In this document: positions 31,543 through 35,218 of the stretch, in pieces
How the letters are laid out: each line of letters opens with the position of its first letter
Numbering within the stretch: the first letter of the stretch is position 1
Program-made: the position numbers and the translations under genes
Notes under the pieces: model-generated
Databases searched by the model: none
Told to the model about the DNA's origin: nothing
Seen by the model: the letters and a program-made list of their open reading frames with translations, nothing else
From: Alistipes sp.
GTDB taxonomy: Bacteria; Bacillota; Clostridia; Oscillospirales; Ruminococcaceae
DNA length: 64,000 nucleotides
Direction of reading: 5' to 3'
Assembly (NCBI GenBank): GCA_023667265.1
Contig: JAMPAJ010000001.1
Location: 1,355,151-1,419,150 of the forward strand

Positions 31543-32577
31543 ATGAAAATCAGTAAAATCATCGCAGCGTTTTCTGTCTCTGCAATAGCTGCTTCAACAG
31601 TGACCGCCTTTGATTCAAATGCGATATCTATCGTGATGAACAGCGATTCGCCCTATTATCAGCAGTATATAGACAAGTTTGCTGAGCTTGACGATCATGG
31701 TTTCTTTCGTTACACTCTTGGAAACAGAAACAATGACTACAAGGTGTACTGCTCTGACGCTTATGCCGATAAAACGGAAAAGGTATGCCGTGTTATTACT
31801 ATCCACGAGTTTCTCCCATACCATATGAGTATTGAAATATCGTCGGACGCCGATGCAGAAGAGGTCAGGGAGATAATTGAAAAATACGATCCCTCACTGG
31901 AGGTGAGCTTCTGGATGACGCAAATCAGCGGAGAAAACGGCGTATTCGCCGGCAGCTTGGTTGATGTTTACGATTATGCCCGCAAGCCGGAAACGGTGGT
32001 GACAGCCCGTAATATTTTTGAAGAGCTTTCGGAATTGCCCGATGTTTTCAGCTGTGATTATTACAGCGGAATGATCAGCGAAATGAATCTCAGTTACTAT
32101 GATTCCCTCACCACCTACTCAGGATTTGGTACTGGAGAAAGCTATGAGGAAATTGCAGAGAAGCTGATCGATTACTTCGCCGAAAACGATCTTGACTTTT
32201 CCGTGCGGGAATATGAAGATATGCACTCCATTTGCTGCGCGGCTTACCCCAACTACCCACTGACTGCTCAGGAGCACCTGGACATAGCTGTAGATATATA
32301 TGAAAAGCTGGGATATCGCGGACATTATGTTTCGCCCAATTCAGCAAGCTTCAGTAAAGATTGTAAGATTGACCTCTGCAACTCGGTAGTCGGCGACGCC
32401 AACAATGACGGCGAGGTCGATATTGCCGACGCTACGCTGATTCTCCAGCACATCGGAAATGCCGATAAGTACGCGCTGTCCCTCCAGGGCGCATACAATG
32501 CAGACATCGACGGGAACGGTGACGTTACGGCTCTTGACTCCCTGGCGATTCAGAAAATTGACGCAAAAACATTTTGA
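31543..32577 (+). CDS. Secreted dockerin protein of unknown function (paralogue 1)
   Basis: A 344-aa exported protein with a signal peptide (1 to about 23, AASTVTA). A C-terminal type I dockerin at 284-344 has two calcium-binding loops, DANNDGEVDIAD and DIDGNGDVTALD. The dockerin would attach it to a cohesin-bearing scaffold. The central 250 residues match no catalytic family I recognise. They appear built from repeated small alpha/beta units and share layout with the dockerin protein at 49366-50466. A GGAGGAG precedes the ATG. Confidence 0.85.
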   Translation: MKISKIIAAFSVSAIAASTVTAFDSNAISIVMNSDSPYYQQYIDKFAELDDHGFFRYTLGNRNNDYKVYCSDAYADKTEKVCRVITIHEFLPYHMSIEISSDADAEEVREIIEKYDPSLEVSFWMTQISGENGVFAGSLVDVYDYARKPETVVTARNIFEELSELPDVFSCDYYSGMISEMNLSYYDSLTTYSGFGTGESYEEIAEKLIDYFAENDLDFSVREYEDMHSICCAAYPNYPLTAQEHLDIAVDIYEKLGYRGHYVSPNSASFSKDCKIDLCNSVVGDANNDGEVDIADATLILQHIGNADKYALSLQGAYNADIDGNGDVTALDSLAIQKIDAKTF

Positions 32578-32584
32578 AACACCA

Positions 32585-32618
32585 AACGGCTGATGTAAAA
32601 ATCAGCCGTTTTTTTTTA
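32585..32618 (+). terminator. Terminator of the dockerin gene, inside the end of the converging gene
   Basis: Stem AACGGCTGAT / ATCAGCCGTT with a GTAAAA loop and nine T residues. The right arm and T-run also encode the last residues (KKNG) and the TGA stop of the minus-strand GTPase-nuclease gene. Confidence 0.88.
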
Positions 32619-35157
32619 TATAATCAGAAATAGACTTATCGGCGGCTTCAACGCGCTGTTTCAGCTCGTTGGCGGATATCCTCATTGCTCCGCTGCCGAA
32701 AATTATCATCTGCTCTGCTCCGTCGGAGGTCGCCACCTGGACGCGGTGCTTCTTTGAAAGCTCATGAGTTACGCGCTCGATATAGCTGTCCGCAGTTTCC
32801 GACTCTCGGGTGTAGACAATGTTGATGTTCAGATACTTTTCCACCTCACGGTGCTTTCCCTTGACCCGGTAGGCGTCAAAGACAAGAATTATCTCATACC
32901 CGGAGTATCCCTGATAATTGCACATTATCTTCACCAGCTCAGCCCTTGCCGCGTCGAGATTTTCCCTGGCGATCTTTTCCAGCTCGTCCCAGGCAAAAAT
33001 AATATTGTAGCCGTCCACCAGCAGATAATCCGGCAGTTCATACTCCGGAAGCTTCACCGGCTTACTGTAATCCTTGACGATTTTCGCCGATTTAAAGGCT
33101 TTTCTGCTGTCCCGACCGGGCTTGCCGTACGTCCGCTGGAAAATCTCCATAAGCTCCTCCTCGGACACGGTATGCTCCGCAGCTCTGGGTTCCGTTACGG
33201 CAGCCTCAGCCTCCGCCCTTTCCGCCAGGCAGCTCGGCAGATGCATATGCCCGGTCACCTCGTCCCATGGCACGATAAAGCCTGCGCCATGACTGCAAAA
33301 TACCGAATCCGCGCTGTTTTCCCTGTCGCCGTCGCAGTCGTAGCCAATAGCGGCAATGACCTCCCCGGCATTATGGCACTCACGATAGCCGCCGTTCATG
33401 CAGGAAAGCCTGCCCTGACCTCTTGTATAGCCGATGACCTCGCCCTGATAGCCGTTCATTTCTGAAACAGGCGCGCTTCCCGAGATAACCGACATCTCGC
33501 CCACCGTCTCCGGTAAATTAAATTCCGCAGACATACGCTGCAGATCAGAAATGGCTCGCCCCACAAACTCTGTCGGCAGCTCCAGCTCATAGTCATAATA
33601 GGGCTCAAGCAGGACGCTCCTGCCCATTCTCAGTCCCTGCCGCACAGCGCGGTATGTCGCCTGTCGGAAATCTCCGCCCTCGGTATGCTTCAAATGCGCC
33701 TTTCCGGAAGCAAGGGTTATTTTCATATCGGTTATCGGCGAACCGGTCAGAACTCCCGAGTGCTCCTTTTCGCCAAGATGCGTCAGGATAAGCCTCTGCC
33801 AGTTACGGCTCAGCTCGTCCTCCGGAACAGACGTTTCAAATACGAGTCCGCTTCCCCTTGGCAATGGCTCAAGGAGCAAGTGTACCTCGGCATAGTGGCG
33901 CAGCGGCTCATAGTGACCCACGCCCTCAACAGGCTCTGCTATAGTCTCCTTATATGCCGCCGAACCGCTGCCGAAGCTGACGGAATAGCCGAATTTCTCG
34001 AGAATTATACGGCTGAGCACCTCGATCTGCACCGCGCCCATAAGCTGAATATGTATCTCGCGGAGCTGCTCGTTCCAGAGAATATGAAGCTGCGGATCCT
34101 CGTCCTCCAGCCGCCGCATATCCCTGAGCACGTCATAAGCATTCTTTTCCCCGGGGAAGATAACCTGATAGACCATTACCGGCTCTAAGGCTGCTCTGTC
34201 GGAATTTCTTACGCAGCCGATGCCCTGACCCGAAAAGGTGCCGTCAAGCCCGGTCACAGCGCAGACCTCTCCGGATACAGCCCTTTCCGCCGTCCGGAAT
34301 TTCTCTCCGGAATAAAAGCGGACAGAGCTGATCTTTCCGCTCATATCCTCGCCGTCGGCATTGACATAGGATATCTCGTCACGGACTCGCAGCTCTCCGC
34401 CCATGACTTTGAGATGAGTAAGCCGCGTTCCCTTGCTGTCATATGTTATCTTATAGATCTTCACACCAAATTCGCCGTACCGCTCAGGTTCTTCCGTGAG
34501 CTCTCCAAGAGCAGCCGTAAACTCGCTGATACCCTGATTTTTAAGCGCCGAGCCGAAAAAGCACGGAAAGACGCGCCTCTCCGATATCGCACGCTTTATC
34601 TCCTCACGGCTCAGGCTGCCGTTTTCGAGATATCGTTCCATAAGCTCCTCGTCGCAGTCGGAGGCATTCTCGCAAATATCCGCATCTGCCGAAAAATCAG
34701 CGCATCTGTCGGATAATTCCTGCCGCAGCCTTTTCATTATGGCAGACCTGTCCGCGCCTATCAGATCCATTTTATTAACGAAAATAAAAACCGGGATCTC
34801 ATATCTGCGCAGAAGCTTCCACAATGTCGAAGTATGGCTCTGCACGCCGTCAGTACCGCTTATGACAAGCACGGCATAATCCAGCACCTGCATGGTGCGC
34901 TCGGTCTCGGCGGAAAAATCCACGTGTCCGGGCGTGTCCAGCAGCGTAATATGAGCGTCGCCGCAGGTAAATTCCGCCTGGCTGGAAAAAATAGTGATAC
35001 CGCGGTCGCGCTCGATGGAATTTGTGTCGAGAAACGAGCTTCCGCTGTCTACCCGGCCCTGCCTGCGGATCTGTCCGGTTTCATAGAGCAGAGCCTCCGC
35101 AAGAGTAGTTTTTCCCGAATCCACGTGAGCTGTAATTCCCAAAGTAATATTTTTCAT
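32602..35157 (-). CDS. TetM-like ribosomal GTPase fused to a Rae1/YacP-like NYN nuclease domain
   Basis: An 851-aa protein. Residues 1 to about 650 resemble ribosome-protection proteins and EF-G: AHVDSGKT at 10-17 (G1), RGIT 52-55 (G2), DTPGH 74-78 (G3), NKMD 128-131 (G4), then beta-barrel and EF-G III-V-like domains. A charged linker (about 650-710) leads to a NYN/PIN-like domain at 712-851 with LLVDGYN, ILVFDAY and TSDGAEQ, supplying acidic residues D715, D761, D790 and D812. In Bacillus, the free-standing form of this domain (Rae1) cuts mRNA in the ribosomal A site, where TetM also binds. A ribosome rescue or stalled-mRNA cleavage role is inferred. Its promoter is a repeat-borne P module. 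Confidence 0.85.
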   Translation of the reverse strand: MKNITLGITAHVDSGKTTLAEALLYETGQIRRQGRVDSGSSFLDTNSIERDRGITIFSSQAEFTCGDAHITLLDTPGHVDFSAETERTMQVLDYAVLVISGTDGVQSHTSTLWKLLRRYEIPVFIFVNKMDLIGADRSAIMKRLRQELSDRCADFSADADICENASDCDEELMERYLENGSLSREEIKRAISERRVFPCFFGSALKNQGISEFTAALGELTEEPERYGEFGVKIYKITYDSKGTRLTHLKVMGGELRVRDEISYVNADGEDMSGKISSVRFYSGEKFRTAERAVSGEVCAVTGLDGTFSGQGIGCVRNSDRAALEPVMVYQVIFPGEKNAYDVLRDMRRLEDEDPQLHILWNEQLREIHIQLMGAVQIEVLSRIILEKFGYSVSFGSGSAAYKETIAEPVEGVGHYEPLRHYAEVHLLLEPLPRGSGLVFETSVPEDELSRNWQRLILTHLGEKEHSGVLTGSPITDMKITLASGKAHLKHTEGGDFRQATYRAVRQGLRMGRSVLLEPYYDYELELPTEFVGRAISDLQRMSAEFNLPETVGEMSVISGSAPVSEMNGYQGEVIGYTRGQGRLSCMNGGYRECHNAGEVIAAIGYDCDGDRENSADSVFCSHGAGFIVPWDEVTGHMHLPSCLAERAEAEAAVTEPRAAEHTVSEEELMEIFQRTYGKPGRDSRKAFKSAKIVKDYSKPVKLPEYELPDYLLVDGYNIIFAWDELEKIARENLDAARAELVKIMCNYQGYSGYEIILVFDAYRVKGKHREVEKYLNINIVYTRESETADSYIERVTHELSKKHRVQVATSDGAEQMIIFGSGAMRISANELKQRVEAADKSISDYIKKNG

Positions 35158-35189: not shown

Positions 35190-35218
35190 ATTATAACATA
35201 CAATCTGCAAAATTGCAA
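35190..35218 (-). promoter_or_regulatory. Promoter of the GTPase-nuclease gene, carried by a repeat
   Basis: On the minus strand: TTGCAA, a 17-base spacer, TATAAT, 33 bases before the start codon. Confidence 0.8.

Follow-up and report, generated by a model that had tools for sequence, protein, structure and literature searches.

A translational-type GTPase fused to a Rae1/YacP-like nuclease in Clostridia, a possible factor for stalled ribosomes

What might a single protein do that carries both a GTPase of the translation factor type and a nuclease of the Rae1/YacP type? This question is raised by a gene in a 64,000-nucleotide stretch of the Alistipes sp. contig JAMPAJ010000001.1 (positions 1,355,151 to 1,419,150; hereafter the window), in which an 851-codon frame runs from 32602 to 35157 without a break on the minus strand, the plus-strand reading of the same interval containing 5 stops. 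A first-pass annotation had given the coordinates correctly and had left unstated that the gene lies on the minus strand. The encoded protein unites EF-G domains (Pfam, residues 3-596) with a YacP/Rae1-type NYN domain that follows them (residues 712-849), and we read it, with a probability just short of one half (about 0.48), as a GTPase factor for stalled ribosomes with a tethered Rae1-like messenger RNA (mRNA) nuclease. The gene and the parts of its product, with lengths in amino acids (aa), are located as follows.

32602..35157, minus strand: fusion gene, 851 aa, translational-type GTPase plus YacP/Rae1-like NYN domain (frame, Pfam, relatives)
34498..35151, minus strand: G domain, residues 3-220, with P-loop, DTPGH, NKMD and GSAL (Pfam GTP_EFTU, E 1e-51)
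34231..34458, minus strand: domain II, residues 234-309 (Pfam EF-G_D2)
33970..34182, minus strand: domain III, residues 326-396 (Pfam EFG_III, 24.4 bits, below the cut-off of 27, at the right position)
33625..33957, minus strand: domain IV, residues 401-511 (Pfam EFG_IV)
33664..33690, minus strand: KHTEGGDFR, residues 490-498, aligned without gaps to loop III of Tet domain IV, a signature of the family (alignment)
33370..33615, minus strand: domain V, residues 515-596 (Pfam EFG_C)
33232..33369, minus strand: C-terminal extension SVFCSHGAGF..MH, residues 597-642 (alignment; folded in the structure model)
33025..33231, minus strand: variable linker, residues 643-711 (alignment, model)
32611..33024, minus strand: NYN_YacP domain, residues 712-849, with D715, D761, D790 and D812 (Pfam, E 3e-51)

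The fusion is real and conserved, and is not an artefact. The 80 relatives kept for comparison were those that best matched the full-length query among at least 587 from named genomes, so they do not represent a frequency; they were 55-75% identical to it in the best segment and came mainly from Ruminococcus, other Oscillospiraceae or Clostridia. A single continuous GTPase-NYN frame with no frameshift at the linker, as first proposed for the window gene, was intact in 79 of these 80, and the sole exception (L048) has a frame broken within the NYN domain. An assembly error is ruled out by the same 79 intact frames, and a chance frame by Pfam E values near 1e-51 for both end domains. Architectures were labelled by frame length, with a check by hidden Markov models (HMMs) for fetched loci only; L048 was left out of the HMMs, and L096 and L100 were left out of profiles A2 and A3.

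Active-site residues are kept in both halves. All four G motifs named by the first-pass annotation were located in residues 15-205 (GKTT at 15-18, DTPGH at 74-78, NKMD at 128-131 and GSAL at 202-205), and G15, K16, T18, D74, H78, K129 and D131 are conserved in 60 of 60 fused rows, which comprise the window protein, 29 of the 80 kept loci, L090 and 29 sequences from other genomes. The domain order I-V of EF-G is present according to Pfam and the model. Among the domains, conservation is highest in domain IV (72% mean pairwise identity, 59 fused rows), and H491, T492, D496 and F497 at the tip of its loop III are invariant in the 60 fused rows. The NYN domain is about as well conserved (56%) as the G domain (58%). 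It scored 174.4 bits with PF05991 (NYN_YacP), for which the gathering score is 24.6, and its best solved relatives, 5mq8 and 5mq9, are named YacP (E 3e-29), which bears out the Rae1/YacP kinship proposed at the outset. The four spaced acidic residues noted there proved to be D715, D761, D790 and D812; they align with aspartates 7, 53, 81 and 104 of 5mq8 and are invariant in all 60 fused rows, so that homologues have retained the NYN active-site residues. When 40 fused rows of the NYN domain were aligned with 18 free ones, L130 and L131 (long branches) being left out, the four aspartates together with Y717 and N718 were invariant, and G716, R738, E794 and Q816 nearly so.

The linker between the two halves is variable, while the domains flanking it are conserved. 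Its mean pairwise identity is 14-17% on either side of a conserved motif, EEELMEIFQRTYG (residues 666-678, with a helix at 663-677 in the model), and 50% within that motif. The tether from H639 to the start of the NYN domain spans 64-104 residues (median 76, 59 fused rows), and the model consists of an EF-G-like body, including the folded extension 597-642, and a folded NYN domain, with disordered stretches at 655-668 and 677-703 between them. A fold search with this model matched solved structures to residues 1-651 only, among the matches listed, and no NYN or YacP entry was among them, which tells nothing against the NYN identity. So long, variable and disordered a tether is consistent with mere co-fusion, in which the NYN domain would be an ordinary Rae1 and the GTPase would work alone with no hand-over, and both proteins do occur apart in 7 genomes. 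The conserved linker motif argues against this explanation, as does the retention of the fused frame over 25 family codes. A further point against it is found in the nuclease: a basic tail of the form hydrophobic-x-x-[LIMW]-R-[RKIL] was present in 14 of 18 free NYN proteins and in 0 of 30 fused ones, the window protein also having none. We consider mere co-fusion quite unlikely.

How could the two halves work together? The decoding centre is where EF-G and Tet proteins, as families, place their domain IV. Rae1 is described in the available passages of two papers as cleaving mRNA in the A site in a translation-dependent manner (PMC12320835, PMC10100781). By analogy with this literature on the free proteins, both parts of the fusion may act at the A site. 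In the scheme that we favour, the GTPase would dock as EF-G and Tet proteins do, its domain IV reaching into the decoding centre, where the KHTEGGDFR tip would sense an abnormal or empty A site. Hydrolysis of guanosine triphosphate (GTP) would follow, domain IV would then withdraw, and the NYN domain on its leash of 64-104 residues would enter the A site and cut the message, or would alternatively reach the mRNA at a neighbouring collided ribosome. The two parts would take turns in the A site, since domain IV and the nuclease would hardly fit there together. Transfer-messenger RNA (tmRNA) would clear the ribosome after the cut. Ribosome binding, stall sensing, the order of events and mRNA as the substrate are steps that we infer. 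The window genome contains a tmRNA (159.6 bits) and an 800-aa frame with an Smr domain, and the fusion therefore need not be the sole nuclease at stalls.

A different substrate has to be weighed, namely ribosomal or transfer RNA (rRNA or tRNA), with the GTPase positioning the nuclease on the ribosome. The available text of Atkinson 2015 (PMC4342817) cites a proposal of such a role for YacP-like NYN domains, and free copies adjoin rlmB-like and mrnC-like genes. Near 18 free loci we found a SpoU-methylase (rlmB-like) gene in 16 cases, a sigma-factor gene in 14, an mrnC-like gene in 13 and cysS in 12, each name being taken from one member of its cluster, and the free copies lie mostly within a cysS-mrnC-rlmB-rae1-sigH-like cluster. 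The 45 fused loci checked have no such neighbours in common, and in the window genome obg and yebC flank the mrnC-like gene. The translation-dependent cleavage reported for Rae1 in the available passages (PMC12320835, PMC10100781) also has mRNA as its substrate, and an rRNA or tRNA target appears improbable to us.

The first-pass annotation called the GTPase TetM/EF-G-like, of which the EF-G/Tet domains I-V hold good and the TetM label finds no support. Among solved structures, those of EF-G, Tet(O) and Tet(M) come closest to the GTPase part in sequence. With the Tet model NF012153 of NCBIfam (cut-off 775) the fusion scored 413.8 bits, and one other fused member and two members lacking the nuclease (hereafter NYN-less) scored 393-450, while the fetched TetB(P) and Tet(M) passed with 959 and 880 bits. 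The fusion also falls short of the EF-G model TIGR00484 (288.9 bits versus a cut-off of 659.4), and further EF-G-type frames, 696 and 699 aa long, are present in the window genome. At loop III of domain IV, 54 of 56 family rows (44 fused, 12 NYN-less) match [KRQ]HTxGGDF[RL], the two exceptions reading KHTQSGDFR and KHTEPPDFN, and domain V of these rows is followed by an extension like SVFCSHGAGF..MH. Tet-type letters (SP.STPADFR) occur at loop III in 0 of the 56 family rows versus 3 of 3 fetched Tet proteins; both the KHTxGGDFR-type loop and the SVFC-type extension are absent from these three, Tet(M), Tet(O) and TetB(P). In the GTPase tree, fused and NYN-less members stand together and apart from Tet proteins (support 100/98). 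The TetM family label is unsupported because the Tet cut-off is missed and loop III differs, and the best reading of these comparisons is that the GTPase forms a family of its own, sister to the tetracycline-protection proteins.

This kinship bears on another explanation, that the fusion protects the ribosome from antibiotics, the GTPase expelling a drug from the A site (not necessarily tetracycline) and the NYN domain adding a second action as a ribonuclease. This was proposed by Atkinson 2015 in the available text (PMC4342817), and the Tet domain order, the 29% identity to Tet(M) and the sister position in the tree agree with it. Three copies on records called plasmids, all typed non-mobilizable, also speak for it: a 933-aa fusion from Agathobacter rectalis in which Pfam finds the NYN domain (L156, 3971-6772), and NYN-less copies from Ligilactobacillus salivarius (L157, 3983-5902) and Paenibacillus (L158). 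L156 is annotated as TetM/TetW/TetO/TetS tetracycline protection and L157 as tetracycline protection, and L158 has no annotation; the label of L156 is possibly a mis-annotation. The evidence of loop III is divided. Pro509 of the Tet loop lies in the drug site according to the available passages of PMC8161019, and the letters are other than Tet in 56 of 56 family rows. On the other side, a Tet(M) triple loop mutant was active and loop changes were tolerated if the conformation was kept (PMC4750697, available passages), and the loop of the fusion differs from that of Tet proteins in letters and is identical in length. Loop III thus weighs against Tet membership, and not firmly against drug protection. 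The missed NCBIfam cut-off, the absence of any resistance gene by Pfam name among 8 window proteins scanned and the location of the window copy on a 1.49 Mb contig also count against antibiotic protection, which we judge unlikely.

The distribution of fused and free nucleases was compared across genomes. The fusion is the only NYN_YacP match in the window genome. At the order level, NYN_YacP was found in 60 of 197 genomes, with 57 frames of at least 833 aa, two of 465 and 478 aa, and a remaining one, 160 aa long, that runs up to a contig edge. At the class level (probably Clostridia, judging from the named relatives), 249 of 391 genomes had a match, 248 of them above the cut-off, and the 250 strong matches comprised 130 fused frames (at least 730 aa), 108 free frames (at most 217 aa; range 160-217 aa) and 12 in between. 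One genome, G513, has one fused and one free copy and is the only one with both. Separately, G326 (61% complete) carries two different fused genes, L109 and L110. In G413, counted as free, an apparently fused gene is split over two contig ends, so that there may be 107 free frames and 6 mixed families; among free frames, contig edges were examined for G413 only. Second NYN_YacP matches in G329, G391 and G430 were below the cut-off (21 bits) and were left uncounted.

The fusion does occur in Oscillospiraceae, as had been anticipated, and is not limited to them. Of 53 family codes with a fused or free match, 18 had only fused, 28 only free and 7 both, which places the fusion in 25 of the 53, in addition to the Agathobacter (Lachnospiraceae) plasmid. 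At the phylum level, profile A1 (domain IV to linker) found the GTPase family in 20 of 299 genomes, with 18 frames of at least 856 aa and 2 NYN-less. Among 11 genomes picked for a free NYN protein, mostly from mixed families, 8 were without any member of the GTPase family, and the other three were G431 with an NYN-less GTPase, G513 with the fusion and G413 with the fusion cut by a contig end. These counts suggest that fused and free Rae1 nearly exclude each other. A more specific form of our interpretation, which we put forward as possible and tentative, is a GTP-gated mRNA nuclease in which a GTPase family separate from Tet and EF-G would inspect the decoding centre with a conserved tip of its own and then pass the stalled A site on to the Rae1 domain on its tether; the fusion would thereby replace free Rae1 in roughly one of every two Rae1-type genomes sampled within the class.

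How did the fusion arise? Profile A1 was applied to 216 class-level genomes, where fused genes scored 301-532 bits (contig-edge and broken pieces aside), NYN-less frames of 645-729 aa scored 335-383 bits and EF-G-like proteins at most 118 bits. NYN-less members were found in 12 of these genomes, namely in none of the 78 that carry a fused gene, 6 of the 64 that have free NYN and 6 of the 74 that have neither, the last group including G324, which has a contig-edge piece of the GTPase. With G431 added to the 6 of the 64, an NYN-less GTPase stands beside a free NYN protein in 7 genomes. In G431 these are L171 and L113, and the NYN domain of the latter groups with fused ones and lies outside the usual gene cluster. 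The NYN domain of the window fusion is 44% identical to the free copy L107 from a genome of the same class, and the NYN tree separates fused and free copies (99/97), except that free L113 and L142 group with the fused copies and L131, a long fused branch, groups with the free ones; L146, which is 160 aa long and lies at a contig edge, was taken as fused.

In the GTPase tree 41 fused rows form one clade (95/70). In a larger tree, NYN-less L154 from an IMG/VR contig and L157 from the Ligilactobacillus plasmid lie within the fused rows (100/91); N_L177, wrongly labelled NYN-less there, is a fused gene truncated at a contig end. A further tree, from which N_L177, L175, L176, L159, L160, L130, L131, L010, L021, L057, L064, L075, L099, L100, L105, L114 and L116 were dropped, places the fused rows with L154 and L157 on one side of a branch (support 39/72), and a single clade of fused rows alone was not rejected (approximately unbiased test, p-AU 0.17). 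The nesting of L154 and L157 among fused members suggests later loss of the nuclease in both. One origin of the fusion with losses afterwards is likely on the evidence of these trees. Copies were also observed on contigs of other kinds: L154 and L155, both NYN-less (each 1-2178), come from two IMG/VR contigs, and whole fusions lie on the 'UNVERIFIED Bacteriophage sp.' faecal contigs MT835563 (L159, 5388-8021) and MT835514 (L160, 7866-10535), which may be host DNA.

Several observations weigh against a stalled-ribosome factor. In 6 of the 12 genomes that carry the NYN-less sister there is no NYN_YacP at all, and the presence of the sister in Rae1-free genomes implies that the GTPase has a job independent of the nuclease; perhaps the NYN-less GTPase acts against a drug or stress. 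A drug-protection role may apply to the fusion as well, its loop III being of Tet length and substituted loops being able to stay active according to PMC4750697. The near-exclusion of fused and free copies is weak evidence outside mixed genera, because descent alone gives one copy per genome, and the tail motif was picked after inspecting the sequences. The pTM (predicted template modelling score) of the structure model is only 0.63, so the model does not predict where the NYN domain sits with respect to the body, and no conserved neighbours were found around the 45 fused loci.

Two features in the DNA flanking the fusion gene were identified.

35190..35218, minus strand: promoter-like TTGCAA-17-TATAAT with TG ahead of the -10 element (consensus match only)
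32584..32611, no strand assigned, listed on the plus strand: terminator-like 11-pair stem across the end of the fusion gene

By consensus match only, 7 promoter-like sites were observed in the window versus 2.4 expected by chance, and terminator-like stems numbered 5 versus 3.3 expected. A dockerin type I domain protein (31543-32577, plus strand) is convergent with the fusion gene, the terminator-like stem lying between both ends, and a Spore_YunB sporulation protein (PF09560; 35257-35961, plus strand) adjoins the gene, in a genome with Ruminococcus flavefaciens-like bacteria as its closest named relatives. The guanine-plus-cytosine fraction of the gene is 0.537 versus 0.491 in the window. For an RNA leader, an Rfam scan of the window gave no match, and upstream DNA compared across ten sequences (the window and nine loci) showed no conservation. 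Among the neighbours of 56 loci (45 fused, including 18 of the 81 loci L010-L090, and 11 NYN-less), the commonest cluster beyond the gene itself occurred in 6 of 56. For a defence system, PADLOC gave weak matches only (E 4e-5 and 0.008).

If the fusion acts as we propose, translation factors can deliver nucleases to ribosomes aided by GTP hydrolysis, many gut Clostridia carry out stall-linked mRNA cleavage via the fusion, and a GTP-gated nuclease would represent a ribosome rescue factor of a new type. The natural fusion of Rae1 to a docking factor makes it possible to test how Rae1 locates stalled ribosomes. For automatic annotation it matters that one fused and one NYN-less member are named tetracycline resistance proteins, which may inflate counts of resistance genes. 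The fusion architecture itself was published in 2015 and is not new; the available text of Atkinson 2015 (PMC4342817) describes NYN-fused Tet proteins in ten Clostridiales species and guesses at ribonuclease-based resistance. Our full-text literature search, which left subscription papers largely outside so that an earlier remark is possible, found no experiment on the fusion. As far as searched, the new points are the scale on which the family occurs, a loop III unlike that of Tet proteins, the sister group that lacks the NYN domain, the near-exclusion between fused and free Rae1, and the absence of the basic tail from fusions.

In comparison with known systems, the window fusion and the proteins of Atkinson 2015 very probably belong to the same family, both combining a Tet-like GTPase with a C-terminal YacP-like NYN domain in Clostridiales; the proteins are called Tet in the available text of that paper (PMC4342817), whereas ours lie below the Tet cut-off, have another loop III and form their own clade. 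Tet(M), Tet(O) and TetB(P) share domains I-V and the same fold in the model, and differ in the loop III letters, the C-terminal extension, the NYN domain and the score with the Tet model. The NYN-less sisters (L094-L105 and L171-L173) share the KHTxGGDFR-like tip and the SVFC-like extension, L102 being 45% identical to the fusion, but they end at the extension, mostly at 640-670 aa, and have no nuclease. Rae1/YacP (PF05991; 5mq8, 5mq9) is of the same NYN_YacP family and has all four aspartates in common with the fusion, but it is a free protein, mostly with a basic tail and in an rlmB-sigH cluster, whereas the fusion has it as a C-terminal domain with neither tail nor cluster. MutS2, an ATPase with an Smr nuclease domain that acts on the ribosome, resembles the fusion in placing an NTPase (nucleoside triphosphatase) and a nuclease within one ribosome-acting protein, although its domains are unrelated to those of the fusion.
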